From an uncultured Candidatus Actinomarinales bacterium (lineage in GTDB: Bacteria > Actinomycetota > Acidimicrobiia > Actinomarinales > Actinomarinaceae): a stretch of DNA of 64,000 bases. The stretch spans positions 1 to 64,000 of the forward strand of contig CALSUY010000001.1 of the NCBI GenBank assembly GCA_943840565.1, written 5' to 3'. Positions 22,878 to 58,390 of the stretch are shown here, piece after piece. Below the pieces are notes generated by a model. It worked only from the letters and a program-made list of their open reading frames with translations, was not told the DNA's origin and did not search any database. The position numbers and the translations under genes were made by a program. How positions within the stretch are numbered: the stretch's first letter is position 1; each line of letters begins with the position of its first letter.

Positions 22878-23522
22878 CTATTTCACTGCTTTTAATACAG
22901 GTCTATCTAGGTAATAACTTAATATCTGAAGTTCTTGGGAAAGATCAACAGATCTAATCTGTACATCTGGAGTATTTTTTAGCAATACAGGTGCAAAGTT
23001 TAATATCGACCTAACACCACACTCAATTAACTGGTCTGCAACTGATTGAGCATATTCACCAGGAGTGGCGATTATTCCAATTGCTACGCTGTACTTATCA
23101 CAAACTTCTTTTAATTCAGAACTTGGTTTAACGACTAAGCCGGCTATTTGCTTATTTATTTTTTTGGGATCATCATCAAAAAGGGCAACTACACCAAATC
23201 CTCTTTCTTTAAAGCCTCCATAGTGGGCTAACGCTGAACCAAGGTTTCCAACCCCAACTATTACGGCACTCCATCCTTCTACTAAACCAAGCTCAAGTTG
23301 AATTTGATTTCTAAGAGTTGAAATATCATAACCAACACCTCTAGTTCCTAATGTTCCTAAATAAGAAAGATCTCTTCTGACCTGTGCATCATTGACTTTT
23401 GCAAGTTCAGCTAAAGTTTTTGATGATATACCTACTTCTGTTGAGCCAACTTGCTCTAGGCACTGTAAATAAAGAGGAAGTCTCTTTACAGTTGCTGGTG
23501 GTATTTTTCCATTTTCTTTCAC
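22878..23522 (-). CDS. rex: Redox-sensing transcriptional repressor Rex
   Basis: This 214-residue repressor responds to the NADH/NAD+ ratio. It has an N-terminal winged helix (about 10-75, containing AQVRRDLSYLGTLGTRGVGY) and a Rossmann domain with GVGNLG (90-95). The C-terminal domain-swapped helix ends in LQILSYYL. Start is GTG 23522. A perfect Rex operator lies 1.4 kb away in front of nuoA, so the first complex I operon is its probable main target here. No such operator is visible at rex itself. Confidence 0.96.
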   Translation of the reverse strand: MKENGKIPPATVKRLPLYLQCLEQVGSTEVGISSKTLAELAKVNDAQVRRDLSYLGTLGTRGVGYDISTLRNQIQLELGLVEGWSAVIVGVGNLGSALAHYGGFKERGFGVVALFDDDPKKINKQIAGLVVKPSSELKEVCDKYSVAIGIIATPGEYAQSVADQLIECGVRSILNFAPVLLKNTPDVQIRSVDLSQELQILSYYLDRPVLKAVK

Positions 23523-23639: not shown

Positions 23640-24908
23640 ATGAAACAAGAAGAAATATATGACGTAATTATTGTTGGAGCTGGTCCAGCCGGAGCTAATA
23701 CAGCTATTTCATATAAAAAATTAAATCCTCAATTAAAAATTGGAATTTTTGACAAAGCACTATTTCCCAGAGATAAATCTTGCGGCGATGCCATTGGTCC
23801 GGGAGTAATAAATGCTTTAAAGAGATTTGGGAATGAACACATACTAGATTCTGAACCAGAAGTGGTTTCAACAACTTTATTTGGGCCTAAAAACATAGGT
23901 ATTCAGAACTATATTCCAGAGGTTCAAAATAAAGAGGATTCTGTAGTTTATGTAATTCCAAGATTAGATCTGGACAATAGAATTTTCAACCTCGCAAAAT
24001 CTTTAGACGTAGATTCTTTCGAGGAGTATAGATATTCTGGATTCACAAGAAATTACGATGAGTCGTTAAACGTTAGTTTTAAAAATGCATCAGGAGAAAG
24101 TGAGACCTTTAAAACAACAATTCTGGTTGGCGCTGATGGGGCTAATTCGAGAGTCAGAAAAGACTTGAACCTAAGCCAAAACACAGATTGGCATAAAGCA
24201 ATTGCTATTAGAGCCTATATTGACAGTCCTAACTATCTGGAAATTTTTAAAGAAAGATCATTAATGTTTGAGATTAACGTATCTGCTTTAAGAGGTTATG
24301 CTTGGGCATTTCCGAGTAAGGGTACGTTAATTAATATTGGGATTGGTATGCCTTTAAGTCTTTTTAAGAAAGAGAATAAAAACATTAATGAAATGCTGGA
24401 TGATTTTGTTCAAACTTTGGAGAGCAGGGGGGTGATAGTTGAAGATATCAGATTAGAAAAAAGCTACATGCTTCCCTTTGCTTCCTCTAGGCCAAAATTA
24501 GCTCATGATAAAGTAGCTTTAGTTGGTGATGCAGGTTCAATGATTAATCCAATGAGTGGCGAAGGTATATTTTATGGCATGGAATCTGGCTTTTTACTTG
24601 CTGAAAACACCCATGAATTAATTCAAAACAATAGAGGAGATATCAACAAGGGTATAAAGTCGTATGAAAAAAGTTTTAATAAACGCTTTTCGAAACATTA
24701 TCTGAGCTGCGCGCTTGCCAGGCTAGTACTTCAAAGTCCCTATATGACTCAACGATTATTGTCGGTTGCATCAATTGATCAGCACACAATAGATTTCGTA
24801 GTGGAACTATTATTCGACGAAGCAAGGCTGACAATAAAAGAAGTTTTTCTTTTAGGTATAAAGTTTTTATCCCCACTTTGGCTTCTAAGAATCATTAAAA
24901 ACAAGTAA
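23640..24908 (+). CDS. Geranylgeranyl-reductase-family FAD oxidoreductase (possible menaquinone reductase)
   Basis: This 422-residue flavoprotein has an N-terminal dinucleotide fold, VGAGPAGANTA (about 12-22), the family motif DKSCGDAIGPG and a second FAD motif, VGDAGSMINPMSGEGI, near residue 300. The family reduces isoprenoid double bonds. In actinobacteria such genes lie beside nuo, and MenJ saturates one isoprene unit of menaquinone. Reduction of the menaquinone tail is therefore the favoured role, inferred from family and position. An archaeal-type lipid reductase role is less likely in this context. It lies 79 bp upstream of nuoA but before the Rex operator, so it is transcribed separately. 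Confidence 0.82.
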   Translation: MKQEEIYDVIIVGAGPAGANTAISYKKLNPQLKIGIFDKALFPRDKSCGDAIGPGVINALKRFGNEHILDSEPEVVSTTLFGPKNIGIQNYIPEVQNKEDSVVYVIPRLDLDNRIFNLAKSLDVDSFEEYRYSGFTRNYDESLNVSFKNASGESETFKTTILVGADGANSRVRKDLNLSQNTDWHKAIAIRAYIDSPNYLEIFKERSLMFEINVSALRGYAWAFPSKGTLINIGIGMPLSLFKKENKNINEMLDDFVQTLESRGVIVEDIRLEKSYMLPFASSRPKLAHDKVALVGDAGSMINPMSGEGIFYGMESGFLLAENTHELIQNNRGDINKGIKSYEKSFNKRFSKHYLSCALARLVLQSPYMTQRLLSVASIDQHTIDFVVELLFDEARLTIKEVFLLGIKFLSPLWLLRIIKNK

Positions 24909-24956
24909 TTAAGTATTAGACATTAATCTTGATTTCCTAGTAAAATAAAACTAACT

Positions 24957-24974
24957 TTGTGAAAACTTTCACAA
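24957..24974 (+). promoter_or_regulatory. Rex operator upstream of nuoA1
   Basis: TTGTGAAAACTTTCACAA is a perfect inverted repeat (arms TTGTGA and TCACAA, 6-bp spacer, extended by A/T pairs) and equals the well-known Rex consensus. It ends 13 bp before the nuoA ATG and just before the AAAGGAG ribosome site, so bound Rex should block transcription. The rex gene lies 1.4 kb upstream. Confidence 0.93.
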
Positions 24975-24987
24975 TTAAAGGAGAGAC

Positions 24988-25404
24988 ATGGTTGATTGGA
25001 CCCCTATCTTAATAATGCTAATAATAGCTGTAGGCTTTGCCCTTGTTTCCTTAGGAGTTAGCTATCTTTTATCTCCAAAAAATCCAACTGCTGAAAAACT
25101 AGCACCTTACGAGTGTGGAATTTTCCCTGAAGAAGAACCCTCCCAAAGGTTTCCAGTAAAGTTTTATATGGTGGCAATGTTATATATTGTCTTTGATATT
25201 GAAATAATTTTTCTACTTGCTTGGGCTACAAGATTTAATGAACTTGGGTGGTACGGCATTCTTGTCATTGCTATTTTTAGTTTTTTTGTGCTTGAGACAC
25301 TTTACTACGTATGGAAAAAGGGTGTTCTCGATTGGAATACACCAAGAAGAAAAAGATATTTTGAAAAAACATTATTTGAACCTCAAACTGAAAAGGTTGC
25401 TTAA
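24988..25404 (+). CDS. nuoA: Complex I subunit A (14-subunit operon)
   Basis: This 138-residue membrane subunit has three hydrophobic helices (about 5-30, 60-85, 90-115) and the conserved loop [13 protein letters not shown], whose Cys lies at the quinone-site loop. AAAGGAGAG precedes the ATG. It opens the first nuo operon and shares one base with nuoB (TAATG). The operon order A-N is canonical. Confidence 0.97.
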
Positions 25405-25865
25405 TGTATTCACCAGATAATATTTTTACAACAACAATTGATAAAGCGGTTAGATGGTCACGCACTCAGTCAATGTGGCCAGTAACATTCGGCCTCGCAT
25501 GCTGTGCGATCGAAATGATGGCTGCTGGTTCAGCCAAGTATGATCTTGCTAGATATGGTATGGAAGTATTTAGAGCTTCTCCTCGTCAAGCTGATTTAAT
25601 GATTGTTGCTGGAAGAGTTTCCCAGAAAATGGCTCCAGTATTAAGACAAGTATATGACCAGATGGCAGAACCAAAATGGGTAATTGCTATGGGGGCATGT
25701 TCATCAACAGGTGGAATGTTTAACAATTATGCATTAGTACAAGGAGTTGATCATATTGTACCTGTAGACATCTATGTGCCAGGTTGTCCTCCAGGGCCAC
25801 AATCCTTAATGCACGGAATATTAACCCTTCATGACAAGATTATGGCTGGAGAAATTAATAGATGA
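25404..25865 (+). CDS. nuoB: Complex I subunit B (cluster N2)
   Basis: This 153-residue peripheral subunit binds the terminal [4Fe-4S] cluster N2, which passes electrons to quinone. The four ligands are visible: tandem C33 and C34 (GLACCAIE), C99 (MGACSSTGG) and C128 (VPGCPPGPQ). ATG overlaps the nuoA stop by one base; the 3' end overlaps nuoC by 4 bp. Confidence 0.97.
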
Positions 25866-26272
25866 ACGAAGTGCAACACATAGAGGTAAATGAATACCAC
25901 GATCACATTAAGTCCCTACTTGAAGAGGGGTACGAAATGATGATGGACCTTACTGCTGTTGATTGGTTTAGAAAAAAAGAACCAAGATTTGAAGTAGTAA
26001 TTAATCTTTTATCTCTTTCTAAGAACCTTAGAAAGACAATTAAGGTTCAAGTCCCTGATGAAAATCTCACCATTCCCTCAATTACAGATATATATCCAGG
26101 AGCCAATTTTTACGAGAGAGAAGTGTTTGATATGTTTGGGATAGTCTTTGAAAATCATCCTGAACTAACCAGAATTTTGATGCCGGATGACTGGATAGGG
26201 CACCCTCTCAGAAAAGACTATGGATCTGGAAGAATTCCTGTCCAATTTAAAAATGCTCCGAGTGTGGATTAA
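25862..26272 (+). CDS. nuoC: Complex I subunit C
   Basis: This 136-residue subunit of the connecting module has the signature [17 protein letters not shown] and the C-terminal [15 protein letters not shown]. It is clearly shorter than usual actinobacterial NuoC proteins because the N-terminal part is reduced to about 15 residues before the core. Overlaps nuoB by 4 bp, so the start is well fixed. Confidence 0.94.
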
Positions 26273-26274
26273 TT

Positions 26275-27630
26275 ATGGTTAAAAATAAAGAAAACTCAGA
26301 AGATTTAGACTTTTGGGCAACAAATTCGGAAGAAGGTGGATGGAACATTTCATCTACAGATGAAGGCTCTCAAAAAATGAATGATGAGGAGTCCGAACAA
26401 CAGATAAAAATCCAGACTGGATCTGATGTCGTAGATGATTATTTTATTGAAGAAGAAACCTCTGAAGATGAGAGAATGATTGTTAATATGGGTCCTCAGC
26501 ATCCGTCAACTCATGGAGTTTTAAGACTTCAAGTTGAACTTGAGGGTGAAGCCGTCAGAAGAGTAAAGCCTATCATTGGATATTTACACACTGGCATGGA
26601 GAAAACTGGCGAAGAGCTAACTTATCTTCAGGGACCTACGAACACAACTAGAATGGACTATCTCTCACCTTTTTTTAATGAACTAGTTTTTTCACTTACC
26701 ACTGAGAAGCTTTTAGACATTGAAGTTCCAGCTAGAGCAGAAACAATAAGAATATTAATGACTGAGTTAAATAGAGTTTCATCACATCTAGTTGCCCTTG
26801 CAACCGGAGGCATGGACATAGGGGCACTTTCTATGATGATATTTGGGTTTAGAGAAAGAGAATTAGTATTAAATTTTTTTGAAAAGACAACAGGACTAAG
26901 AATGAATCATAACTACATCCGACCAGGAGGTGTAGCAGCAGACTTACCTGATAATTGGCAAAAAGATGTTAAAGAAATATTAAAAATTATCCCTGAAAAG
27001 CTTAAAGACTATGACGAAATGTTACTTGATAATCCGATATGGCAGGGACGACTCCAAAATGTAGGAATTATAACTCCTGAGGAATGTCTGGCTTATGGCA
27101 TTACTGGCCCAAGTTTAAGAGCATCTGGTCAGGGATGGGACCTTAGGAAAATGCAGCCTTATTCTGGAATTGAAAAATTTGATTTTGATGTACCTGTCTT
27201 ACAAGAAAGTGATGTTTTTGCTCGTTGGAGAATTAAAGTACTTGAAATTCTAGAGAGTCTAAAAATTGTAGAGCAAGCAATGGACAATATGCCTAAAGGA
27301 CCATATAAAATTCAAGATAAAAAAGTCACACCCCCACCAAGGAAAAGACTTGATGAATCTATGGAAGCACTGATTCATCATTTTAAAATTTATACAGAGG
27401 GATTCAAAGTTCCTGAAGGAGATGCATATGTTGCTGTTGAGTCCCCAAGAGGAGAATTAGGTTGCTATATAGTTTCAGATGGTTCTTCTAAACCATTTCG
27501 AATGCACGTAAGGGGTCCATCATTTTGCAACTTACAAGCTCTACCGATTGTTATGGCCGATAGTCCAATAGCAGATGCTGTTGCAGCAATAGCATCTTTA
27601 GATCCTGTAATTGGAGATGTTGATAGATGA
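26275..27630 (+). CDS. nuoD: Complex I subunit D with acidic N-terminal extension
   Basis: This 451-residue subunit forms the quinone site with NuoB. The core starts near residue 66 with MIVNMGPQHPSTHG and ends VIGDVDR. A Glu/Asp/Ser-rich, Cys-free extension of about 65 residues precedes it; ATG 26275 is 2 bp after nuoC, and an internal Met35 is an alternative start. At the position of human NDUFS2 Arg118 (precursor numbering) this protein has Thr106 (YLHTGMEK), as in mycobacterial NuoD. The absence of N- and C-terminal CxxC pairs separates it from [NiFe] hydrogenases. Confidence 0.95.
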   Translation: MVKNKENSEDLDFWATNSEEGGWNISSTDEGSQKMNDEESEQQIKIQTGSDVVDDYFIEEETSEDERMIVNMGPQHPSTHGVLRLQVELEGEAVRRVKPIIGYLHTGMEKTGEELTYLQGPTNTTRMDYLSPFFNELVFSLTTEKLLDIEVPARAETIRILMTELNRVSSHLVALATGGMDIGALSMMIFGFRERELVLNFFEKTTGLRMNHNYIRPGGVAADLPDNWQKDVKEILKIIPEKLKDYDEMLLDNPIWQGRLQNVGIITPEECLAYGITGPSLRASGQGWDLRKMQPYSGIEKFDFDVPVLQESDVFARWRIKVLEILESLKIVEQAMDNMPKGPYKIQDKKVTPPPRKRLDESMEALIHHFKIYTEGFKVPEGDAYVAVESPRGELGCYIVSDGSSKPFRMHVRGPSFCNLQALPIVMADSPIADAVAAIASLDPVIGDVDR

Positions 27631-28241
27631 GCTGGGAAACAGAAAGATTAGAAAAAGCTAAACAAATTATTGAAATGTATCCTCAAAAGAGATCTGCTCT
27701 AGGACCATTGCTTTATTTAGCTCAAGATAAAGATGGATATATCTCAAATGAATCAATTGTTGAAATTAGCGGACTTATTGGGATAACAGAAGTCCAAGTC
27801 CAATCGGTTGCGTCTTTTTATTCAATGTACAAACAGGAGCCAACAGGTAAATATTTACTCAGTGTTTGTAAATCAATTTCTTGTGAGATAAGTAACTCAA
27901 GTGATGTAATTAATAGTGTTAAAAATTTTACAGGGCTAAGTAACAATGAAACAGATGATGAAAATTTCTTTACTTATGAGTCTGTTGAATGCATTGGCGC
28001 GTGTGGTGGAGCACCTGCAATTCAAATTAATTATGAGACTGTCGAAGGCCTAACACCTGATAAAGCTGTAGATTTGTGCAAGTGGCTTAAAGAAGAAGAA
28101 CCTGAAATAGTAGTTGCAGATGAGCTTCAAGATAAATTTGGTGGAGTGAAGTCTTTTGACTGGGCTATCGCAGATAACAATGGAGCAACTAGCCCTGTTC
28201 CAGGTTTTCAAACTTATGACACATCAAAGGAGAAAAAATGA
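27627..28241 (+). CDS. nuoE: Complex I subunit E (NADH module, [2Fe-2S])
   Basis: This 204-residue, thioredoxin-fold [2Fe-2S] subunit of the NADH-oxidising module has cluster ligands in CKSISC (C-x4-C) and CIGACGG (C-x3-C). A C-terminal tail of about 40 residues after the fold is rich in Asp/Glu and looks flexible. The start overlaps nuoD by 4 bp, and the stop overlaps nuoF by 4 bp after an AAAGGAG site. Confidence 0.95.
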   Translation: MSWETERLEKAKQIIEMYPQKRSALGPLLYLAQDKDGYISNESIVEISGLIGITEVQVQSVASFYSMYKQEPTGKYLLSVCKSISCEISNSSDVINSVKNFTGLSNNETDDENFFTYESVECIGACGGAPAIQINYETVEGLTPDKAVDLCKWLKEEEPEIVVADELQDKFGGVKSFDWAIADNNGATSPVPGFQTYDTSKEKK

Positions 28242-29527
28242 AAGAAACCCTTCTTCTGACCAAACATATGAGAGAAAATCCTGAAGACAGCCACTCTCTG
28301 AAATCCTATGAAAAAAATGGAGGATATGAATCTGTTAAAAAAGTACTTAAGTCTGGTACCCCTGAAGAAGTACTCCAAGAGATAAAAGATTCTAACATTA
28401 GAGGTAGAGGAGGAGCTGGTTTTCCTACAGGAGTCAAATGGGGCTTTTTAGCTGAAGATGAAGAAAGATACCTTGTTATAAACGGTGATGAATCTGAGCC
28501 CGGAACTTTTAAAGATCGAATTCTTCTTGAAAGAGATCCACATCAATTAATTGAAGGAATGATAATCACATGTTTTGCCGCAAATATTTCAAAGGCTTTC
28601 ATATATATAAGAGGTGAATACGCAAAGCCGGCAAGAAGAGTTCAAAGTGCTATTGAGGAAGCTTATGAAAAGGGATATTTAGGAAAGAATATATTTGGAT
28701 CTTCTATGAACTTGGACATTGTGGTGCACCTTGGTGCAGGAGCCTATATATGTGGAGAAGAAACCGCTTTACTAAACTCACTAGAAGGTAGAAGAGGTGA
28801 GCCTAGATTAAAACCACCATTTTTTCCAGCAGTAAAAGGTCTATATAACAAACCAACGCTTGTAAATAATGTTGAGACTATCTCTTCTGTTCCATGGATA
28901 ATGAGTAACTCTGGAAAAGATTATTCAAGCTTAGGAGTTGAAGGTTCAACAGGGACTAGAATTTTCAGTCTTTCTGGACACATAAACAATCCTGGAAACT
29001 ACGAAATAGAGATGGGGTCTTCATTTGGAGAGTTCGTAGACACTTTAGGCAAAGGTGTTAAAAATAAAGCCATTAAAGCATACATTCCTGGTGGAGCGTC
29101 AGCTCCATGGTTACGTGGAGATCAACTCGACGTCAAAATGACAATTGATGACGTTGCAAACGAGGGGTCCATGCTTGGTTCTGGAGCAGTCGTAATGATG
29201 GATGAAGATACAAATTTAGTTTTAGCAGCAAAAAGCTTAGTAAGCTTTTTTGCGCATGAGTCTTGTGGACAATGCACTCCATGTAGAGAGGGAACTACTT
29301 GGCTTGAAAATATACTTGAAAGAGTTGCTTCCGGCAGGGGACGACTTTCAGATATAGACCTACTACTTGATGTCTGTGATAATATTTCACCAGGACTTAG
29401 CTGGCCACCAAAGATGACAACTATATGTCCGCTTGGACCTTCTGCTACTGCATCGATTGTGTCTTTAATGAAAGACTTTAGATCAGAAGTTGAAGTTTTA
29501 CTACCAAAGAAAGTAGTAATAGGTTGA
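28238..29527 (+). CDS. nuoF: Complex I subunit F (NADH- and FMN-binding)
   Basis: This 429-residue flavoprotein oxidises NADH. The glycine-rich FMN/NADH site GRGGAGFPTGVKWGF lies near residue 54, and YICGEETALLNSLEG follows near residue 170. The N3 cluster ligands are in SCGQCTPCREGT plus a later Cys in TTICPLGPSA. Normal length. It overlaps nuoE and nuoG by 4 bp each. This gene is what the second operon lacks. Confidence 0.97.
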   Translation: MKETLLLTKHMRENPEDSHSLKSYEKNGGYESVKKVLKSGTPEEVLQEIKDSNIRGRGGAGFPTGVKWGFLAEDEERYLVINGDESEPGTFKDRILLERDPHQLIEGMIITCFAANISKAFIYIRGEYAKPARRVQSAIEEAYEKGYLGKNIFGSSMNLDIVVHLGAGAYICGEETALLNSLEGRRGEPRLKPPFFPAVKGLYNKPTLVNNVETISSVPWIMSNSGKDYSSLGVEGSTGTRIFSLSGHINNPGNYEIEMGSSFGEFVDTLGKGVKNKAIKAYIPGGASAPWLRGDQLDVKMTIDDVANEGSMLGSGAVVMMDEDTNLVLAAKSLVSFFAHESCGQCTPCREGTTWLENILERVASGRGRLSDIDLLLDVCDNISPGLSWPPKMTTICPLGPSATASIVSLMKDFRSEVEVLLPKKVVIG

Positions 29528-31857
29528 ACGAAAAAGTAACTTTTACCGTTGATGGAAAACAGCTTGAAGGAAAACAGGGGCAACTCCTAATTGAGGCATG
29601 TGAGGATTCTGGTATTCACATACCAAGGTTTTGTTGGCATAAAAGATTAGATCCAGTCGGTATGTGTCGAATGTGTCTGGTTGAAATTGATACACCTAGA
29701 GGAAAAGCTTTAGTACCTTCTTGTACAACACAAGTAAGTGAAGAATTAATTGTCGAAACAGAGTCTGATACTGTTAAAAAAGCGCAAGAAGGCGTTCTAG
29801 AGTTTTTACTCATCAACCACCCCCTTGACTGTCCTATCTGTGACAAAGCTGGAGAATGCCCCCTTCAAGATCAGACAATGGCTTATGGACCAGGCGAATC
29901 AAGATTTATTGAGGAAAAAAGACATTTTGAGAAACCAATTCCTGTTTCAGACATCGTATTACTTGACAGAGAGAGGTGTATTTTATGTGCGAGATGTACC
30001 AGGTTTTCTGATGAAATTTCCGGAGATCCTTTAATTGAATTCATCCAAAGGGGAAATAAAACACAAGTTAATACTTTTCCTGATGAACCTTTTAAATCTT
30101 ACTTTTCAGGAAATACTGTTCAAATTTGCCCAGTTGGGGCACTAACTGCAACTAGTTACAGATTTAAAGCAAGACCATGGGATTTAAAAAAAGTGTCTTC
30201 AACATGTAATTGTTGTTCGTTAGGATGTTCCGTTGAGTTAAATGTATCTCAAAATAAAATGTTAAGAATACTTGGTGAAGATAATGAATTTACTAATCAA
30301 GGATGGCTTTCAGATAAAGGAAGATATAATTTTGAATATTTGCACTCAGAAAATAGATTATTAAATATTCATTCAAGAGAAAATGAAGACTATCAGACTA
30401 TCAATATCTCAGATGCAATTGAAAAGATCAAAAATAAGATTAAGGACTTAGACAACCCAGATATAAAGTTTATCATTGGAGCAAACAGCACAAATGAAGA
30501 ATATTTTGCAATCAACAAATTTGCTAACTCCCTAAATAGAAATGAATTTTTAAGTAAGGATAAATCTAATGTCTACTTTGCTGATGATCATATTTATAAC
30601 GGATATTTTAGTGAGGAATATACAAGTGCTACTTTCGAAGATCTGGATAATTCTGATGCAATCGTTGTGTGGGCAGAGGATATTAAAGATAACCTACCAG
30701 TACTATTTCTTAGAATCAAAAAAGCAGTTAAAAACGGAGTTAAGCTCGTTGTATTCGGACACACCAATACAGCTTTAGAGAGTCTTGCAGACCTCTATCT
30801 TGGTGCTGAAATTGTTTCCAATAATTTTGAATTAAAAACAAGTCTAAGCAATATTCAAGAATTGAAAGATATTATCGATAGTAAAAAAGTAACTACAATT
30901 ATTGGAAAATCTACTCCTTTACAAAAAAAAGATTCACTAGATACTCTTATAAATCATTTACAAAAGGTTTCCGACCTGAAGGTATTTAACTGTTTTAGTA
31001 AAGCGAATACTTTTGGAGCAATACAACACATTGACCAGATAAAGGGATTAAATGAATTCTGCACTGAATATGAAAATTCAAATAAAAATATTGTATTCAC
31101 TATAGGTGCAAACCCTGTTAACTCATCATTTTTTGGATCAAAAATTAAAAATCTTCTTGAAGATACAGACTATGTTATTTCACTTGATATTTTTAAAAAT
31201 GAAACAACAGAATTAGCTGATTTGATATTACCAACAACTGCTTTTGGTGAAAAAGAGGGGACGATAACAAATATGGAAATGAGGGTTATGAAGCAAAATA
31301 AAATCCTTCCGGACCCCGGCTCAACTCTTTCTGAATGGGAATATTTAATAATGATTGCTCAATCGCTTGGAAAAGATATTAACTATGACAGTGTAAACGA
31401 TTTAAACAGTGAGTTAGCAAGTCAATTTACAATGACAGAAGCATTACCCACATTTGATAATCTTAATAAACCATCAAATCTTTTTGGAATACTAAATCAA
31501 AAAGAAATTAATTTAAATATCAGGGATATAGATCAAGACAGTTCGTCTCTTTTGATGGTAAAAAGACTCTATGGAGATTCAAGTACTCAAATTAATTCAC
31601 CATCAATTTCAATGTTAGGTTCTGAAAGGTTCATTGAGTTGAGTGAATTTACTTTAGACAAATATGGGATAAAGTCCAATGTTGCTACTTTAACTCAAGG
31701 CTCATCATCTATTTTTGTGAATATAAAATTGAATAATCTTTTGCCAGACAATCTTGTTTTAGCTCCAATTAATAGAAGAGGATTCGAAAAATTAGACTCT
31801 ACTAAAGATTTTGATCTCAAAGAGACAAAAAACATGAAGGATTTAAGTGTCAATTGA
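29524..31857 (+). CDS. nuoG: Complex I subunit G (iron-sulfur chain)
   Basis: This 777-residue subunit carries several clusters. The [2Fe-2S] ligands are C37, C48, C51 and C67. A His-Cys3 cluster follows at CPICDKAGECPLQ, with further [4Fe-4S] ligands in CILCARCTRF. A molybdopterin-oxidoreductase-like domain starts with CNCCSLGC near residue 225. TTG start at 29524 overlaps the nuoF stop (GGTTGA). The C-terminal half is poorly conserved and very Asn/Ser/Lys-rich, as expected for a catalytically inactive domain. Confidence 0.95.
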   Translation: MNEKVTFTVDGKQLEGKQGQLLIEACEDSGIHIPRFCWHKRLDPVGMCRMCLVEIDTPRGKALVPSCTTQVSEELIVETESDTVKKAQEGVLEFLLINHPLDCPICDKAGECPLQDQTMAYGPGESRFIEEKRHFEKPIPVSDIVLLDRERCILCARCTRFSDEISGDPLIEFIQRGNKTQVNTFPDEPFKSYFSGNTVQICPVGALTATSYRFKARPWDLKKVSSTCNCCSLGCSVELNVSQNKMLRILGEDNEFTNQGWLSDKGRYNFEYLHSENRLLNIHSRENEDYQTINISDAIEKIKNKIKDLDNPDIKFIIGANSTNEEYFAINKFANSLNRNEFLSKDKSNVYFADDHIYNGYFSEEYTSATFEDLDNSDAIVVWAEDIKDNLPVLFLRIKKAVKNGVKLVVFGHTNTALESLADLYLGAEIVSNNFELKTSLSNIQELKDIIDSKKVTTIIGKSTPLQKKDSLDTLINHLQKVSDLKVFNCFSKANTFGAIQHIDQIKGLNEFCTEYENSNKNIVFTIGANPVNSSFFGSKIKNLLEDTDYVISLDIFKNETTELADLILPTTAFGEKEGTITNMEMRVMKQNKILPDPGSTLSEWEYLIMIAQSLGKDINYDSVNDLNSELASQFTMTEALPTFDNLNKPSNLFGILNQKEINLNIRDIDQDSSSLLMVKRLYGDSSTQINSPSISMLGSERFIELSEFTLDKYGIKSNVATLTQGSSSIFVNIKLNNLLPDNLVLAPINRRGFEKLDSTKDFDLKETKNMKDLSVN

Positions 31858-32944
31858 TTTAATAATTGGAGTAACAAAAGCAGCTTTGATTTTAGGGCTT
31901 TTATTAACCAACACAATTTTACTTATATGGCTCGAAAGAAAGTTAGTAGCTGGTATGCAATCGAGAGTTGGACCAGATAGGGCAGGACCTTTTGGAATTT
32001 TGCAAACAGTTGCTGATGCAGTAAAACTACTTCTAAAAGAGCAAATACTTCCCTTAAAAGCTGACAGAGCAATGTATTTATTAGCTCCTATCCTTGCATT
32101 GGTACCATCATTTTTAATATTTATGATTATTCCTCTTGGGCCAAGCATCGATTTAGTTATACAGGGAGAAGCCGTAAATGTAGATTTGGTTGGAGCAAAT
32201 ATTAACGTAGGAGTCTTATTCTTCTTAGCTCTATCATCAATAGCCGTATATAGTGTTGTTCTTGCCGGTTGGTCTTCAGGATCGAAATACCCATTACTTG
32301 GTGGAGTCAGAGCTTCTGCACAGATGATCTCTTATGAAGCCGCTATGGGGTTAGCCTTAGTTCCAGTAATACTTTATTCAGGATCTATGTCAATGACTGA
32401 TATAGTTCAAAGTCAATCAGGATTTCTATCAAGCCCTATTCCTATACTAGATTCAATTGTTGGCTTTATTCCTAAGTGGAATATATTTCCACAGTTTGTA
32501 GCATTTGCAATATTTTTTATAGCATCTGTTGCAGAGGTAAATAGAGCTCCATTTGACTTAGTTGAAGCCGAACAAGAGTTGGTAGGAGGATTTCATACTG
32601 AGTATTCCGGATTTCGCTTTGCAATGTTTTTTCTTGCCGAATATATAAACATGTTTAACATGTGTGCAATAACAGCTACATTCTTTTTAGGCGGATGGCT
32701 AGGCCCAACTTTTTCAGGATTCTTACCACCATTCATTTCAGCATTTATGCCAGCCGTTTGGCTCGGGGTTAAAACTTTTTCTTTGTTATTTATATATGTT
32801 TGGATAAGAGCAACCCTACCTAGATTGAGATATGATCAATTGATGGAACTAGGCTGGAAAAGACTAATTCCGATTTCACTAGTATGGCTATTATTATCTT
32901 CAATTGTTTTAGGAGTTAGAGAGTTTGGCTTACCATGGAGTTAA
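31847..32944 (+). CDS. nuoH: Complex I subunit H (quinone-site membrane subunit)
   Basis: This 365-residue membrane subunit has about eight helices. Conserved elements are GMQSRVGPDRAGPFG near residue 40 and the quinone-channel stretch NRAPFDLVEAEQELVGGFHTEYSG near residue 230 (given only in part by families). GTG start at 31847 overlaps nuoG by 11 bp. It docks the peripheral arm and couples quinone reduction to pumping. Confidence 0.96.
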   Translation: MSIDLIIGVTKAALILGLLLTNTILLIWLERKLVAGMQSRVGPDRAGPFGILQTVADAVKLLLKEQILPLKADRAMYLLAPILALVPSFLIFMIIPLGPSIDLVIQGEAVNVDLVGANINVGVLFFLALSSIAVYSVVLAGWSSGSKYPLLGGVRASAQMISYEAAMGLALVPVILYSGSMSMTDIVQSQSGFLSSPIPILDSIVGFIPKWNIFPQFVAFAIFFIASVAEVNRAPFDLVEAEQELVGGFHTEYSGFRFAMFFLAEYINMFNMCAITATFFLGGWLGPTFSGFLPPFISAFMPAVWLGVKTFSLLFIYVWIRATLPRLRYDQLMELGWKRLIPISLVWLLLSSIVLGVREFGLPWS

Positions 32945-32947
32945 AAG

Positions 32948-33562
32948 ATGAGTAGTGGATACGACTTACTAAAAGGATTAAAAGTAACATTTAAAGAGTT
33001 ATTTAAAAAATCTGTAACTGATAAATACCCGAAAGAGTTTAGAGACAAACCCCAACGTTTTCATGGAAGACATGTTCTTAACAAATATGAAGATGGTATG
33101 GAAAAGTGTATTGGTTGTGAACTTTGTGCTGGAGCATGCCCTGCACAATGTATATATGTAAGAGGTGAGGATAATCCTGAGGAAAACCCAGTAAGTCCAG
33201 GGGAGAGATATGGCTTCATATATGAAATAAATATGTTGAGGTGTATATATTGTGGTCTTTGTGTAGAGGCTTGCCCTACAGAGGCAATAACAATGACTTC
33301 ACTTTTTGAAATGAGCGTTGCAGATCGATCTGAGGCAGTATTTGATAAATCTGTATTGCTTGTTAAAGACGATGGTTCAGCCAATACTCACGAAGAACAA
33401 ACAAATTTAACTAACCCAGAAGAGTTAACAAAAATTGATGGTTGGATGAGAGCAACAGCTCCTAATGGTAATCCAGATTTTGAAAATGTTATTGGATGGA
33501 CTAATTCCCTGGGCTATGGGGAAAGAGAACCAGAAAAAGGCCAAACAATGGAAGAAGAGTAA
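32948..33562 (+). CDS. nuoI: Complex I subunit I (two [4Fe-4S] clusters)
   Basis: This 204-residue ferredoxin-like subunit carries clusters N6a and N6b. One motif spans C54, C57, C60 and C64 (CIGCELCAGAC), and the second spans C99, C102, C105 and C109 (CIYCGLCVEAC). The tail of about 60 residues after the fold is acidic and typical of actinobacterial NuoI. Three bp separate it from nuoH. Confidence 0.96.
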   Translation: MSSGYDLLKGLKVTFKELFKKSVTDKYPKEFRDKPQRFHGRHVLNKYEDGMEKCIGCELCAGACPAQCIYVRGEDNPEENPVSPGERYGFIYEINMLRCIYCGLCVEACPTEAITMTSLFEMSVADRSEAVFDKSVLLVKDDGSANTHEEQTNLTNPEELTKIDGWMRATAPNGNPDFENVIGWTNSLGYGEREPEKGQTMEEE

Positions 33563-33567
33563 AAAAA

Positions 33568-34092
33568 GTGTTAGAACTACTACTTTTTGCAGTACCAGCA
33601 GGTCTAGTAATTCTAGGAGCTTTAATAGTTATATTTGCTAAAAATCCTGTTCACAATTCAATGGGTTTAGTCTTAACACTCGCATCACTTGCAATAATTT
33701 ATATCACTCTGAATGCAACCTTTGTGGCTATGGTCCAAATGCTAGTTTACGCCGGGGCTGTAATGACTTTATTTTTATTTGTGATAATGATGATTGGTGT
33801 TGATAAGCCTGAACAAACAAGAGAAGAAATTAAAGGTCAAACCCTTCTGGTATCAGGAACCCTTTTTATTTTGATTGGTTTAGTTTCATTTATTGTTGTA
33901 AATTCTGGTTTTAAGTGGGATCTCTACTTTCCTGCAGTTGAGTATAGCCTAGAGGGTACACCGGATTTAATTGCTGCAAGTCTATTTACTGAATGGGTTC
34001 TCCCATTTGAGATAATTTCATTATTACTTATCGTTGCTACAGCTGCAGCTATTGCCTTAGCTTATGATACAAAAGTAAGGAAACCAAAATGA
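33568..34092 (+). CDS. nuoJ: Complex I subunit J
   Basis: This 174-residue membrane subunit has five hydrophobic helices and the conserved [17 protein letters not shown] helix (about residue 56), which contains the pi-bulge region involved in coupling. GTG start at 33568, 5 bp after nuoI; overlaps nuoK by 4 bp. Confidence 0.95.
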
Positions 34093-34397
34093 TAGAGGTT
34101 TCAACGGACTGGTATTTAACATTAGCCGCTATCTTATTTTCAATCGGCTTCCTGGGGATGATGATTAGAAAAAATGCATTGATTATGTTTATGTGTATAG
34201 AGCTTATGCTTAATTCTGTAAATTTAACATTCATAACTGCATCAAAACATTTTGGAACAATAGAAGGACAAATCTCCGTATTTTTTGTTCTAGTGGTGGC
34301 TGCTGCTGAAGTAGTTGTAGGTTTGGCCATAATAGTTTCAATATTTAAAAAACAATCTTCAGCATCTGTAGATTTACTAAGAACTTCCAGAGGTTAG
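34089..34397 (+). CDS. nuoK: Complex I subunit K
   Basis: This 102-residue, three-helix membrane subunit has the conserved glutamates of the proton path in [13 protein letters not shown] and [11 protein letters not shown]. Overlaps nuoJ by 4 bp and precedes nuoL by 3 bp. Confidence 0.95.
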
Positions 34398-34400
34398 TTA

Positions 34401-36290
34401 GTGGAAAATTTACTTTTAGTAATTATATTTTTACCATTGTTAACAGCCCTTGGGATTAAGATTATTTCAAATTTAGTAAATGAACTTTTACTAAATTTTT
34501 TAACAATTAACTCAGCACTTCTGTCTTTTGCAACAGCATGCGGAATGTTTGGTCTACTTCTTACAGATAAGTTTAAGCCTATTCACTTAGAATTATTTAC
34601 ATGGATTCCAAGCCCAGAAATATTATTTGAATTTACTTTGGATGGTCTTTCTGGAATCATGATGCTTCTTGTAACAGGGCTATCAGTTGTTATTCAAATC
34701 TTTTCAACATCGTACATGAGTAAAGATGAGAATTACTCCAAATATTTTATATATTTTAATGTATTTGTATTTTCTATGTTGCTATTGGTTATGTCGGGAA
34801 ATTTTTTAGTGATGTTTTTTGGCTGGGAGTTAGTTGGACTGAGTTCCTATCTCTTGATATCATTCTGGTCAAAAAAACAGTCAGCTGCAAAAGCTGGAAA
34901 CAAAGCCTTCATACTTAATCGTATAGGAGATTTTGGGTTCCTAGTTGGATTAATGCTGACGTTGAACACCTTTGGAACGTTCAACTACGAAAAAGTTTTT
35001 TCTGAAGTCTTAAATGGGAATCGTGAAAGTTTAAGCATTATTGTAATTTGTTTTATTATTGGAGCATTTGGTAAGTCTGCACAGTTTCCACTTTTTAGTT
35101 GGTTACCAGATGCAATGGAAGGACCCACACCGGCTAGTGCTTTAATACACGCAGCGACAATGGTTACGGCAGGTGTCTTCATGCTTGTAAGAATCTCACC
35201 AATATTACAGTTTTCGGAAACGGGAAAACTTATCATCATTACAGCAGGACTGTTGACTGCTTTGATCGCAGCTTTTTCTGCAATTAATCAAGATGATATA
35301 AAAAAGGTCTTGGCTTACTCCACAATTTCTCAATTAGGGTTCATGTTTATTGCTATAGGTTCAGGTGCATATGTTGCAGCAATTTTCCATTTGGTAACTC
35401 ACGCATTTTTTAAAGCTCTCCTATTCCTAGGGGCAGGTGCTGTAATTCACGAGATGCATCACGAGCAAAATATTCATAAAATGGGGAACCTCAAAACAAA
35501 AATGCCTATTACCGCTGCAATGATGGGTATAGGTACATTAGCAATATCAGGAATCCCTCCACTTGCAGGTTTTTGGTCAAAAGACGAAATACTCGCTTCC
35601 ACTTTTGCAAATGGTGGCTTCTATTACGGGTATTGGGCTCTCTCATTATTGGCTGCTTTTATGACAGCTTTCTATATGGGAAGACACTGGTTATTAATAT
35701 TTCACAAAGAAACTGGAAACGACATCAGTGAAGTTCATGAGGCACCAAAAGCGATGGTAAGGCCCCTTATTGTATTGGGCATATTTTCATTCTTTATTGG
35801 ATTTATTAATACTCCTTTTTTCCACGGATTAGAAAAAGTCCTAGAGGAAACACTACATTATGTAGACATAACGCATCTTCCTGAGGGGATTACATTGATT
35901 ATCCTCGCAGTAGTTTCGATAGGTGCTGGATTTACAGGTTTATTGCTTGCTTATCTGATATATATTGTTGATATACTTGCATATTTTAAAGTCAAGATTC
36001 CACTCAAAGAAGAAATAAAAGAGCTGTCTTCAAATACCCTATATTTAAACAAATTTGGTGAAGTCATATTTGTAAAGGGTATGAAATCATTTTCTAGAAA
36101 AACCGCTGTTGTTGTTGATGGGCTCTTGATTGATGGCTTAGTTAACAAAATATCTAGTTTGTTTTACAACTCCTCACAAAAAGTCTCAAGATCACAGAAT
36201 GGTCTCGTAAGAAGCTATGTTGTTTATTTTGGATTTTTTATGCTTCTACTAATTGGGCTGTTTATTGCTACACCATGGGTATTAAATTGA
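34401..36290 (+). CDS. nuoL: Complex I subunit L (antiporter-like)
   Basis: This 629-residue proton-pumping subunit has the antiporter-like core with GWELVGLSSYLLISFW, KSAQFPLFSWLPDAMEGPTP and the HAFFKALLFLGAG stretch. The long lateral helix and final anchoring helix lie in the last 130 residues. GTG start at 34401. It overlaps nuoM by 16 bp. Confidence 0.95.
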   Translation: MENLLLVIIFLPLLTALGIKIISNLVNELLLNFLTINSALLSFATACGMFGLLLTDKFKPIHLELFTWIPSPEILFEFTLDGLSGIMMLLVTGLSVVIQIFSTSYMSKDENYSKYFIYFNVFVFSMLLLVMSGNFLVMFFGWELVGLSSYLLISFWSKKQSAAKAGNKAFILNRIGDFGFLVGLMLTLNTFGTFNYEKVFSEVLNGNRESLSIIVICFIIGAFGKSAQFPLFSWLPDAMEGPTPASALIHAATMVTAGVFMLVRISPILQFSETGKLIIITAGLLTALIAAFSAINQDDIKKVLAYSTISQLGFMFIAIGSGAYVAAIFHLVTHAFFKALLFLGAGAVIHEMHHEQNIHKMGNLKTKMPITAAMMGIGTLAISGIPPLAGFWSKDEILASTFANGGFYYGYWALSLLAAFMTAFYMGRHWLLIFHKETGNDISEVHEAPKAMVRPLIVLGIFSFFIGFINTPFFHGLEKVLEETLHYVDITHLPEGITLIILAVVSIGAGFTGLLLAYLIYIVDILAYFKVKIPLKEEIKELSSNTLYLNKFGEVIFVKGMKSFSRKTAVVVDGLLIDGLVNKISSLFYNSSQKVSRSQNGLVRSYVVYFGFFMLLLIGLFIATPWVLN

Positions 36291-37777
36291 GTGGCTTAAT
36301 TTATACTCTTATTTTGTTTCCACTATTTGGAGCAGTGGTCATTTTTCTAATGCCAAAAAAGAGATTTGAGCTATTTCAACCTTTAGCAATATTTCTTTCA
36401 ATCATTCCATTTAGCGTGTGCTTATATTTATTTTCAAATGAGAATAGCAAGGGTTCCTACCAACAATTTGATTCTATAAACTGGATAAGTTCTTATGGAA
36501 TAAAGATTAGTTTAGGTTTTTCAGGAATGTCCCATCTTTTATTGTCGTTAACATCAATATTGGTTCTTCTATCCTTTCTTTCGGTTACAGAAAATTATTC
36601 AAAAAGTAAGGGTTTTATTGGTTCTATATTAGTTTTACACTTTGCTGTTAATGGTGTTTTCTTGAGTGGAGATTTACTCTCTCTGTTCATATTTTTTGAG
36701 GCAATATTGATCCCTATGTATTTTTTAATGGGTATTTGGGGTGGAGACAATAGAAGATATGCAACAATTAAATTTATTATTTATACAGTTTTTGGTTCCA
36801 TATTTATATTTATAGGGACTGTTTATACCGGAGTTATAAGTTACTCACAGACCGGTACATTAGCTTTAGATTATGTAACTTTATCTAATTTAAATTTTAC
36901 TTCCCAACAATCTAAAGCACTTTTTCTGTTATTCACATTTGGATTTTTAGTTAAAGTTCCTCTTTTTCCTTTGCATACTTGGCTTCCAGATGCGCACGTC
37001 GAAGCCCCAACAGCTGGAAGTATATTATTAGCTGGAGTGTTATTAAAAGTGGGCGCATTCGGAATTTTAAGAGTATCAATACCATTTTTCACAGAAGGAT
37101 TCTTAGAGTACAGAGACATAATTGCTATCTTGTCTGTCATTGGAATTATATATGGAGCTGTTGTAGCGATTGCACAGATAGATATCAAAAAACTGATAGC
37201 ATACTCATCAATTAGTCACATGGGATTTGTAATGCTTGGAATATCCTCAGGTAATCTTTTAAGCCTTGAGGGCGCAATTATTCAAATGGTAAATCATGGA
37301 TTAACATCTGGAGCGCTTTTCATGCTAGTTGGCTTTGTTTACGAAAGACGTCACACCAGACGAATTTCTGATTTTGGAGGTCTCAAAATTACAATGCCTA
37401 AATACGCTGCAATTTTTCTATTTACATCTTTTGCATCTATTGGACTTCCCGGATTAAATGGTTTTGTAGGAGAATTTATGATTCTAATGGGAAGTTTTGG
37501 TACGTATAAATTATTATCAGCCATTTCTGCCTTCGGTGTGGTTCTTGCGGCAATTTACATGTTATGGGCATATCAAAGGATGTTTACAGGTGAAATTAAT
37601 AATGAAGAAAACGAAAACTTACATGATTTAGATACTAGAGAGCTGGTTTCAGTGATACCACTTTTGGTTTTAATGCTATTTATTGGTGTATACCCATCTT
37701 TTATTGAAAGTTATGTATTAAATGATGCACAAATAATTACGAATGTAGTTGAATTATTTAGCGGAGGTTTAAATTGA
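36275..37777 (+). CDS. nuoM: Complex I subunit M (antiporter-like)
   Basis: This 500-residue proton-pumping subunit has about fourteen helices. Typical stretches are FFEAILIPMYFLMGIWGG near residue 145, VKVPLFPLHTWLPDAHVEAP near residue 230 and AYSSISHMGFVMLG near residue 310. It starts inside the nuoL end and overlaps nuoN by 4 bp. Confidence 0.95.
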   Translation: MGIKLSGLIYTLILFPLFGAVVIFLMPKKRFELFQPLAIFLSIIPFSVCLYLFSNENSKGSYQQFDSINWISSYGIKISLGFSGMSHLLLSLTSILVLLSFLSVTENYSKSKGFIGSILVLHFAVNGVFLSGDLLSLFIFFEAILIPMYFLMGIWGGDNRRYATIKFIIYTVFGSIFIFIGTVYTGVISYSQTGTLALDYVTLSNLNFTSQQSKALFLLFTFGFLVKVPLFPLHTWLPDAHVEAPTAGSILLAGVLLKVGAFGILRVSIPFFTEGFLEYRDIIAILSVIGIIYGAVVAIAQIDIKKLIAYSSISHMGFVMLGISSGNLLSLEGAIIQMVNHGLTSGALFMLVGFVYERRHTRRISDFGGLKITMPKYAAIFLFTSFASIGLPGLNGFVGEFMILMGSFGTYKLLSAISAFGVVLAAIYMLWAYQRMFTGEINNEENENLHDLDTRELVSVIPLLVLMLFIGVYPSFIESYVLNDAQIITNVVELFSGGLN

Positions 37778-39247
37778 ACACAGTCTCACAGATTATTGGT
37801 CTTAACTGGATAGTTATCGGACCAACATTGGCTTTAGTGGGAACAGCTCTGGTATTGTTGTTTTGCACTATAACCATTACTACTTCTGACAATGTTAAAA
37901 AAGTAGTGACTATTAGTGGAATATTTATGACACTATTTACTATATTTTTAAAATTTGGATTATTTTCAACAGCGGGTCCCTTCATCATACTTCTCAGAAA
38001 AAATTCTTCTCGACGAATTTTCACTTTTTGGTAATGTTTTACTTGGCTTAGTTCTTTTATTAAATTTTTATCCAATTTGGAATTCCTCTTTTGAACTAAA
38101 GGACAAAACAACAGAAGCTATAATTCTCACCTTAATGAGTACCGCAGGATTTATGCTCATGGTTGATTCTGAAAATTTCATGATGCTTTTTATTGGACTT
38201 GAGATTGGGTCAATTAGTTTATACGCTTTAGCTGGGATCAACAAAGGTAGTTTATTAAGTAATGAAGCCTCTCTTAAATATTTCCTCCTAGGTTCTTTAG
38301 CATCCTGTGTCTTGGTATATGGAATCTCTTTAATGTATGTATCCCTCTCAATTACTGGAGTCTACGAAACAACTATTGCTATCTCCTTCATTGGGATTGA
38401 AAACATTCCCTTAACAACACTCGTTGGTATTTTATTACTCATAATTGGTCTGTTATTTAAAGTAGCAGCAGCCCCTTTCCAGTCATGGGCCCCAGATGTG
38501 TACCAAGGATCACCCACAGGCTATGTAGGGTTTATGGCCGCTACAGCAAAAGTTGCATCTTTTGTTGTACTAGCAAGGCTATGTATAGTTTCTCTTGGTT
38601 TGGTAATGGATAAGTTCGAATTATTTTTCTCTGCAATAATAATACTCTCAATTCTTATAGGCTCACTATTTGCAACTGTCCAAACGGACATGAAAAGATT
38701 GATTGCTTACAGTGGAGTAATTCAATCTGGATTTATTCTTTCAGGAATAACTTCTGGAGTAAATGGAACAAGTGCTTCATTATTTTATCTTGCTGCTTAT
38801 ATTGTTCAGTTAATTGGAATCTTCCTTATATTCTCAGTAATTACTGGTGAGCTATCATCAGATTTCTCTATGGAAAATCTTTCTGGCCTGTTTATAGAAA
38901 ATAAATATTTGAGTATATGCTTTAGTATTTTTATGTTAGGCCTTGCTGGACTGCCTCTAACAAGTGGATTTGTATCGAAATTTATTCTTATCACCAATCT
39001 GTGGTCATATGAAAAATATATTCTAGTTTTTGCACTGATGCTATCAACTGTTGCAGGTTTTTACTTTTATTTGAAGCCAATATGGATTGCCGCAATAGAT
39101 AAACCTGAGAACAGCGTTCCACCGATTCAATTGAAATTGAATGATAAAATTTCCGTTGGTGTACTTGCTGGCTTAACCATTACATTAGGATTGTTTCCAA
39201 ATATCCTCATAAACATTTCCCGATGGGTAGTTCAAAATTACCTCTAA
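37774..39247 (+). pseudogene. nuoN: Complex I subunit N, interrupted by a single frameshift
   Basis: The gene starts at ATG 37774 (4-bp overlap with nuoM), and the frame reads through two N-terminal helices until a stop at 38034. From about residue 70 the homologous reading continues in the +1 frame to 39247, beginning KILLDEFSLFGNVLLG and including APFQSWAPDVYQGSPTG. The two frames overlap around 37955-38034. Removal of one base, for example from the A6 run at 37998-38003 or from the GGG/CCC at 37974-37980, would restore a normal gene of about 490 codons. The rest of the gene looks fully constrained, so a sequencing error or a very recent mutation is likely. NuoN is required for pumping by this complex. 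Confidence 0.88.
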
Positions 39248-43585: not shown

Positions 43586-44263
43586 TTAGTTCACGAAAAC
43601 TCTTTCAGCTATATATTGGTCTAAACCAAAAAATTTTTTGTTATCAGTACTTACAGTAATTGAGAATTCATTTGCATCAGCAATAATAATTTTTGAACCT
43701 GGGACTATTTTATTTTCTTGTAAAAAACTAATCATGGAAGCATCTCTTTTTAATTCTTCCGTTATTTTATTAATTGAATAATTTCTGTCCTTTTGTACAT
43801 TTAAAAGATTTGTAGTTTCTAGTTTCTTGTATTTAGAGTAGGGTATAGGATTCCCAAAAAGTCCAGTAGTTGGATTGCCGAGTATAGAAAGCATTGCTTT
43901 TTCAGTAACTGGACTGAGTATATTCTCCCATTTAGAAGTCTCCGCATAAACTTTTTCCCATGGGAGTTTTAATACTTCTGATAGAAATCTTTCAACAATT
44001 CTATGTCTCCTGGCAACAGTTTTGGCTAAATATAAACCCTTATCTGTAAGTTGAAGATCGTCCTCAAATTTTATTAGGCCACTATTTTGCATTCTTCCTG
44101 TAATTTGCGAAACGTTAGCTCTGCTGACGTCAAGCCACTCAGCAACTCTTGTCTGCTTAACTTCAATACCCACTTCATTAAGATGAAAAATTGCAACTGC
44201 TTGTTTATAAAAAGATTCCGGCAGTTTTTCCATTTCTTTTTGAGTGAGCATATGTTTAATCAT
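43586..44263 (-). CDS. DtxR/IdeR-family transcriptional regulator with altered metal sites
   Basis: This 225-residue regulator has an N-terminal winged helix (about 15-80, VAEWLDVSRANVSQITGRM), a dimerisation/metal domain with FGNPIPYSKY, and a C-terminal FeoA-like SH3 domain. Against C. diphtheriae DtxR the ungapped stretch KVYAETSKWEN replaces KVHDEACRWEH, so H98, C102 and H106 become Tyr106, Ser110 and Asn114. M10 aligns with Ser17. H87, E91 and E113 remain. Iron sensing may therefore be changed or lost. It is divergent from a ferric-type ABC importer, its likely target. Confidence 0.88.
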   Translation of the reverse strand: MIKHMLTQKEMEKLPESFYKQAVAIFHLNEVGIEVKQTRVAEWLDVSRANVSQITGRMQNSGLIKFEDDLQLTDKGLYLAKTVARRHRIVERFLSEVLKLPWEKVYAETSKWENILSPVTEKAMLSILGNPTTGLFGNPIPYSKYKKLETTNLLNVQKDRNYSINKITEELKRDASMISFLQENKIVPGSKIIIADANEFSITVSTDNKKFFGLDQYIAERVFVN

Positions 44264-51495: not shown

Positions 51496-51861
51496 ATGAA
51501 TTCTTATTTTCAGGAGTACGCAACAGTAGCAGTATTGTTAGCAGTGGGCATTATATTTATGCTCATTTTGACATCTATTGCAGCTATCCTCAGGCCGAAT
51601 AATCCCTCTCCTGAAAAACTTACAACCTACGAGTCAGGTGTTGACCCCGTCGGGACAGGTTGGAGTCAGACTTACATTCGATACTATATTTTTGGCCTAT
51701 TGTTCGTAATTTTTGATGTTGAAGCAGTATTCATATTCCCATGGGCAATTAATCTTGAGAAGTTAGGTTATTTTGGTTTAGTGGAAATGCTAGTTTTTAT
51801 TTTTATTTTGTTAATCGGATTAATTTATGCAATTAGAAAGGATGTATTGAAATGGGAGTAG
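51496..51861 (+). CDS. nuoA: Complex I subunit A, second operon
   Basis: This 121-residue, three-helix subunit has the loop [13 protein letters not shown], in which the usual Cys of YECG is Ser. That change is known in several NuoA lineages and distinguishes this copy from the first. It opens an 11-gene operon with very tight spacing and overlaps nuoB by 10 bp. Confidence 0.95.
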
Positions 51862-52349
51862 TTGATAAATTCGGATTACCAAAACCGATATCGTCAGTTT
51901 TAAACTGGGCTAGGTCATACTCTTTGTGGTATTTCCAATTTGGATTAGCTTGCTGTGCAATAGAAGTTATGGCAGTAAGTGGACCCAGACATGATTTTAT
52001 GAGACTTGGAATTATCCCACTACCTGCATCACCAAGACAAGCTGATTTAATGGTTGTCGCTGGAACAGTCACAGACAAAATGGCACCAGCAGTAAAAAGA
52101 CTATATGATCAAATGCCAGAGCCAAAATATGTCATATCTATGGGTTCCTGTTCAAATAGCGGTGGTCCATATTGGGATTCATACTCTGTTACAAAAGGTG
52201 TGGATCAACTTATCCCTGTTGACGTATACGTTCCAGGATGTCCTCCAAGACCTGAAGCTTTACAAGAGGGAATTATTCTCCTACAAGAAAAAATAAGAGG
52301 AGAAGACATGAAAGAAAAATGGAAAGCAGATCAAAATGAACCTGTCTAG
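51852..52349 (+). CDS. nuoB: Complex I subunit B, second operon
   Basis: This 165-residue N2-cluster subunit has ligands C34, C35 (GLACCAIE), C100 (MGSCSNSGG) and C130 (VPGCPPRPE). It lies in a distinct branch from the first copy, with the insert [11 protein letters not shown]. Overlaps nuoA by 10 bp and nuoC by 14 bp. Confidence 0.96.
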
Positions 52350-52887
52350 CAATGCAGAGTTTATTGAGTCAATATCTACAAAATTTTCTAGTGTAGAAAA
52401 TGAATTTGATACCCTAAAAATAAAAGTAAAACCAGAAGAATGGGTAGAAACAGCAAAAATTCTTAAAGAAGAATTTCAACTTACTTACTTTTCATGGCTA
52501 AGCGCCATTGATTGGGAAAATGAAGTTTCAGTAGGAGACCCCCCGAAAGAATCAGTATCACCACATTTTGAAATAGTTTTTTGCTTGTCAGAGTCAATTG
52601 AAGGAAATGTTGTTTTAGTATCTACTGAAATAGAAAAAGAAGATGCAATGATTCCATCCTTAATTGAGGTTTTTGCAGGTTCTAATTGGCACGAACGAGA
52701 AGCATACGAAATGTTTGGTATCGAGTTCAATAATCATCCAAACCTCACAAAAATGTATCTTCCAGATGACTACGAGGGAAATCCAATGCTCAAATCATTT
52801 GAGTTGATCAGTAGAGAAGTTAAGCCATGGCCTGGTGAAGTAGATGTCGAAGGTATGCCAGAAAACGGTTCAAAGGAAGATAATTAA
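52336..52887 (+). CDS. nuoC: Complex I subunit C, second operon
   Basis: This 183-residue, full-length NuoC, longer than the first copy, has the signature [17 protein letters not shown] and the tail [16 protein letters not shown]. The N-terminal beta/alpha domain is intact. One base separates its stop from the nuoD start. Confidence 0.94.
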
Positions 52888-52888
52888 A

Positions 52889-55548: not shown

Positions 55549-55549
55549 A

Positions 55550-56068: not shown

Positions 56069-56370
56069 GTGCTCAGCCTTTTTTAATTGCAGCAGCAGGA
56101 TTATTTTCAATTGGGATTTATGGAATTTTAGTTAGAAGGAATGTTGTTATGGTGTTGTTGTCTATCGAGTTAATCCTCAATGCTGTGAATATAAACTTTG
56201 TAGTCTTCAATGCAATGTTAGGAGATGCATTATTACAGGGTCAAATTTTTACTATTTTCATTATCACCATAGCCGCTGCTGAAGTAGGGATTGGTTTGGC
56301 GATTGTTTTAATGTTGTTTAGAAATAGAAAAACTGCAAATATTGATGAATTTGATTTGTTGAAATGGTAA
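56065..56370 (+). CDS. nuoK: Complex I subunit K, second operon
   Basis: This 101-residue, three-helix subunit has conserved glutamates in SIELILNAVNINF and AAAEVGIGLAIVLML. Overlaps nuoJ by 4 bp and nuoL by 7 bp. Confidence 0.94.
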   Translation: MSAQPFLIAAAGLFSIGIYGILVRRNVVMVLLSIELILNAVNINFVVFNAMLGDALLQGQIFTIFIITIAAAEVGIGLAIVLMLFRNRKTANIDEFDLLKW

Positions 56371-58382: not shown

Positions 58383-58390
58383 GAGGAAAA

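Follow-up and report, generated by a model that had tools for sequence, protein, structure and literature searches.

Organization of the nuo locus

The window, i.e., the whole stretch of 64,000 nucleotides analyzed here, harbors a gene encoding the redox-sensing repressor Rex and two nuo operons, the features of which are listed in Table 1. The rex gene is separated from nuoA1, the first gene of the first nuo operon, by a single gene belonging to the geranylgeranyl-reductase family. The first operon encodes all 14 subunits of complex I, including the NADH module, while the second encodes 11 subunits. According to previous work on Ca. Actinomarinales, these genomes hold one full and one EFG-less nuo cluster with heliorhodopsin and iron genes in between (PMC7771536), and the window displays the same layout. 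The gene nuoN2 (60063 to 61463) was assigned by its position and on the basis of that work, which has no mention of Rex (0 occurrences). The heliorhodopsin gene of the window (PF18761; 48641 to 49444) lies in the interval between the first and second nuo operons, in agreement with what has been published for the order, and is without a Rex-type site, since the window contains no site at zero to two mismatches other than the one upstream of nuoA1.

The product of rex scores above the curated cutoff of its family model and shows both the winged helix and the Rossmann GxGxxG motif. It could be aligned over its whole length to the solved Rex structures 5zz5, 3ikv, and 3ikt, which match it in the stretch QVRRDLSYLGTLGTRGVGY, which we take to be part of the winged helix, and in GxGxxG, which is presumably the Rossmann motif of Rex.

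Table 1. Positions of the features discussed in the text, with the basis of each assignment
Feature	Position	Strand	Basis
rex, redox-sensing transcriptional repressor	22878..23522	-	NCBIfam NF003992, 279.9 bits (cutoff 226); alignment to solved Rex structures
Geranylgeranyl-reductase-family flavoprotein gene, between rex and nuoA	23640..24908	+	TIGR02032, 171.2 bits (cutoff 158.8)
Candidate nuo1 promoter, TAGACA - 18 nt - TAAAAT	24917..24946	+	Consensus scan; TAnAAT beside the operator conserved in the genus alignment
Predicted Rex operator, TTGTGAAAACTTTCACAA	24957..24974	.	No variation at 16 of 18 positions among 38 genus genomes
nuoA1 ribosome-binding site, AAAGGAG	24977..24983	+	Sequence; purine-rich GGAG/GGGA box retained in the genus alignment
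First nuo operon, nuoA-N with E, F, and G (NADH module); 14-subunit complex I	24988..39247	+	NCBIfam
DtxR/IdeR-type iron repressor gene	43586..44263	-	PF02742, 67.3 bits
Second nuo operon, 11-subunit, without nuoEFG and without a Rex site upstream	51496..61463	+	See text (listed for comparison)

A predicted Rex operator upstream of nuoA1

The palindrome preceding nuoA1 reads TTGTGAAA-AC-TTTCACAA, with arms that are perfect over 8 bp and no mismatch at any of the 14 positions of the Rex consensus TTGTGAA-N4-TTCACAA; it ends 13 nt upstream of the ATG at 24988. A preliminary description of this DNA had reported a perfect Rex operator before the first nuo operon, which proved exact in both sequence and coordinates. 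It had also described the operator as overlapping the region immediately preceding the nuoA ribosome-binding site; the operator stands directly before AAAGGAG, abutting this element and not overlapping it. Within the window, the 14-position consensus is matched once without mismatches and never with one or two. A site at 55605 was discarded, as it lies within nuoJ2 and carries three mismatches. The full-genome scan for TTGTGA-N6-TCACAA which the description had proposed was carried out, like all our genome-wide scans, as a pattern search. In the genome to which the window belongs (640,326 bp, 70.6% complete), it returned a single exact match, at nuoA1, and none for the reversed control pattern, while 0.13 exact matches per genome are expected under a first-order Markov model. 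The sole one-mismatch site over these 12 positions elsewhere in this genome (C1:184660) was rejected: it falls within a coding frame and has three mismatches to the 14-position consensus. Genus wide, we counted 125 exact matches versus 16 for the reversed pattern in 42 genomes.

NuoB was located in 99 genomes, including that of the window, and upstream DNA was retrieved for most of them. A perfect TTGTGAA-N4-TTCACAA was present 13 to 18 nt before nuoA1 in all 38 loci of the genus Ca. Actinomarina that hold the region (that of the window included; one genome, G033, was left out since a contig end cuts the region), although these do not amount to 38 independent events because the genomes are related. 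When the 38 distinct genus sequences were aligned, the central two bases alone varied within the operator. The surroundings have diverged, with the TAnAAT box and the ribosome-binding site being almost all else that is shared. This -10-like box ends 10 nt upstream of the operator, an arrangement which fits repression at the promoter. The site thus adjoins the conserved -10-like box of the candidate promoter of a respiratory operon, and it is retained in a genus where 38 of 42 genomes bear rex. By its position, the operator would lie a few bases past the transcription start. The predicted geometry is like that of cydA1 in Streptomyces avermitilis, where the Rex footprint extends from -3 to +25 (PMC5355995); more generally, the Rex operators of S. 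avermitilis overlap or just follow the promoter, and the Actinomarina nuo1 site is alike.

The second nuo operon and the question of electron donors

Upstream of nuoA2 (51496) in the window, the best match within 200 nt has mismatches at 5 of the 14 positions, and nothing at zero to two mismatches was found in the 2.7 kb before nuoA2 in 20 further genus loci. The earlier claim that the second operon lacks such a site therefore holds in the 21 genus genomes checked, that of the window included, and within the genus the two operons do differ in this respect. When upstream regions were compared across relatives, neither an equally good site before the second operon (0 of 21) nor loss of the site before the first (present in 38 of 38) was encountered within the genus. 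Outside it, one genome of the class (G046; L135:2029-2046) has a Rex-like palindrome, TTGTGCAAAGATGCACAA, 51 nt before nuoA2.

The same description took the split as support for different electron donors of the two complexes, a step for which we find weak support. No site at zero to two mismatches was detected near nuoA1 in 39 of the 40 other class genomes, the exception being G052, with two mismatches 31 nt upstream of nuoA1, and most other class members carry the site on neither operon. Since most of these genomes nevertheless keep both operons, the site does not track the type of donor. The operator would therefore tell when complex I is made, not which substrate the other complex oxidizes. 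The donor argument rests on the absence of nuoEFG and on the published proposal of F420 for the EFG-less complex (PMC7771536).

Rex-type sites across the class and comparison with Streptomyces

In S. avermitilis, binding of Rex to nuoA1-N1 was established by EMSA, ChIP, and footprinting, and wblE was reported to be under direct Rex control through the consensus TTGTGAA-N4-TTCACAA (PMC5355995). The Actinomarina system resembles this regulon in Rex itself, in the consensus, in nuoA1-N1, and in a WhiB-type target, corresponding to wblE. It differs in that no site was found before atp or rex and in that a Cys-protein/CopZ/CopA cluster and a rhodopsin are new predicted targets. In other genomes of the class, Rex-type sites are found before rex itself, as in Streptomyces, and exact sites in the outgroup precede AtpI/AtpB genes and a WhiB gene; the motif is therefore tied to Rex across the class. 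In many of these genomes (L341-L360), rex is preceded by an asymmetric site with the sequence TTGTGAA-N4-TGCACAA or one close to this. Read on the opposite strand, TTGTGAA-N4-TGCACAA corresponds to the S. avermitilis rex site defined by footprinting, TTGTGCACGCGTTCACAA.

Rex control of atp is known in Streptomyces. For the genus studied here it was rejected, as no site at zero or one mismatch was present up to 1.5 kb before atpB in 27 loci, with a single two-mismatch match falling inside the gene start. Autoregulation of rex in the genus was rejected as well, given that no site at zero to two mismatches was detected besides the nuo one. Three further sites were observed in individual genomes. 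An exact TTGTGA-N6-TCACAA lies about 60 nt before an RNA polymerase sigma factor-like gene in G060 (L240:1501), and in G002 a small lipoprotein-like gene has an exact Rex-type site about 100 nt upstream (L167:2377-2394). A similar exact site occurs in G025 (G025:C22:17051), which, like G002, is a close relative of the window.

Other predicted members of the regulon

Perfect sites precede two further genes of the genus in every locus inspected. The WhiB gene (PF02467) has one in 29 of 29 loci, invariably 13 nt before its start, and a gene encoding a 64-amino-acid Cys protein has one in 30 of 30 loci, 13 to 23 nt before the start. The latter protein (L281-L310; about 2340-2535 in L156) contains conserved Cys and His residues, shares 89 to 100% identity among genus members, has a paralogue with about 55% identity, and is matched by no Pfam or NCBIfam model; its gene is followed by CopZ-like and CopA-like genes. 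In the genome of the window itself, we detected no match to the rhodopsin discussed below or to the Cys protein, and for WhiB a 41% paralogue at best, probably because this genome is only about 70% complete. The regulon of the window's species is therefore deduced from close relatives.

The proton-pumping rhodopsin (PF01036) could be inspected in 29 loci with an upstream region, and all matches from the contig search were Actinomarinales-type records. A repeat with the 4-bp spacer of Rex sites and zero to two mismatches is present in 18 of these loci. In 10 loci, all from one clade, these arms flank a spacer of 3 bp, and one locus has neither arrangement. All members of the 3-bp-spacer clade (L186-L195) carry TGTGAA-CGT-TTCACA 25 to 26 nt before the rhodopsin start, which suggests that Rex control may be altered or lost there. 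Two exact Rex-type sites spaced 41 bp apart were seen in each of three genomes (G041, L152:2083-2141; G013:C26; G014:C33); in G041, they lie between the rhodopsin gene and a divergent photolyase gene. In a tree of rex, ggr, and nuoA, the genomes with a rhodopsin site are spread over three separate regions of the genus, one of which is the clade of the window. A rhodopsin with a photolyase neighbor was reported for the order without mention of Rex (PMC7771536), and we found no published link between Rex and rhodopsin in the literature.

Alternative explanations

The consensus of Crp has the core TGTGA-N6-TCACA, with a spacing identical to that of the Rex site. The pattern by itself cannot separate the two, and a regulator of the Crp/Fnr/GlxR type could in principle be the binder. 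However, the outer T and inner AAA/TTT that are typical of Rex sites are among the conserved positions of the operator, so that its flanks are of the Rex type, and the predicted targets coincide with those of Rex in Streptomyces. Furthermore, searches for the Crp-type helix-turn-helix across the genus gave no match or one to three weak partial matches per genome, covering approximately positions 18 to 56 of 70 and in some cases just exceeding the cutoff. In the genome of the window, the lone match (PF13545; 22.7 bits, below the cutoff) is the DtxR protein of Table 1, which also argues against a Crp binder; this genome is incomplete, no Crp/Fnr regulator was recognized in it, and its relatives give similar weak partial matches. 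Because the genus yielded no genuine Crp/Fnr gene, the protein that binds the site is likely Rex, and we regard a Crp-type regulator as extremely unlikely. Scarcely more plausible is an action of the inverted repeat in mRNA, as a 5'-leader hairpin controlling translation or mRNA stability. The repeat does sit in the predicted leader, 2 nt upstream of AAAGGAG, but the same palindrome precedes rhodopsin by 29 to 70 nt and stands at yet other distances from the outgroup genes. In addition, the operator arms are invariant in sequence and do not co-vary, and Rfam models gave no match over the window apart from a tRNA. Taken as a whole, the conserved site upstream of nuoA1 very probably serves as an operator for Rex.

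The repeats upstream of rhodopsin call for a more cautious reading. They might be leftovers or serve a different regulator, perhaps one related to light: 10 genomes have a spacer of 3 bp and not 4, one has no repeat, and in one clade each member carries one or two mismatches. Yet 18 of the 29 loci keep the Rex spacing with zero to two mismatches, against a background of approximately 1.3e-5 per nt for two mismatches, and three genomes hold two exact copies; moreover, sites with two mismatches are bound by Rex of Streptomyces (PMC5355995). On balance, we deem leftovers or a different regulator the less probable origin of these repeats, albeit one to be taken seriously, and membership of rhodopsin in the Rex regulon reasonably probable, with less certainty than for nuo1.

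Proposed control circuit and its significance

The sequence comparisons make it highly likely that the Rex protein encoded one gene away uses the 18-bp palindrome as its operator and that Rex represses nuo1 and runs a small regulon in the genus. Binding, repression, and the direction of the response are predicted by analogy with tested Rex proteins (PMC5355995). When the NADH/NAD+ ratio is low, Rex would occupy the operator, immediately past the -10 box, and block transcription of nuo1. A rise in NADH would release Rex and allow expression of nuo1, by which NADH would be lowered again, in a plain negative feedback. The predicted regulon comprises nuo1, the WhiB gene, and the small Cys-protein/CopZ/CopA cluster, joined in most lineages by rhodopsin. 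Low NADH would thus mean little complex I, WhiB, and rhodopsin, whereas at high NADH, for instance when oxygen or quinone is short, all of them would be on, and light-driven pumping would be offered when respiration lags. We lean slightly toward the view that Rex directly represses the light-driven rhodopsin together with the NADH-oxidizing complex I, with light capture being set by redox state and not, or not only, by light.

Taken on nuo alone, the site is what the known Rex regulon of actinobacteria would lead one to expect; what is added here is a compact predicted regulon containing a rhodopsin. A single redox sensor may govern both respiration and the capture of light energy, and a Rex site on rhodopsin would link the respiratory redox state to photoheterotrophy. 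The usual idea is that starving cells switch rhodopsin on. The circuit proposed here predicts the opposite, namely that, if it is true, rhodopsin expression would be low at low NADH, for example, during carbon starvation. Actinomarina are tiny, uncultured planktonic bacteria of the sea whose genomes are very streamlined and encode few regulators, and a defined redox regulon would provide a testable control circuit for them.
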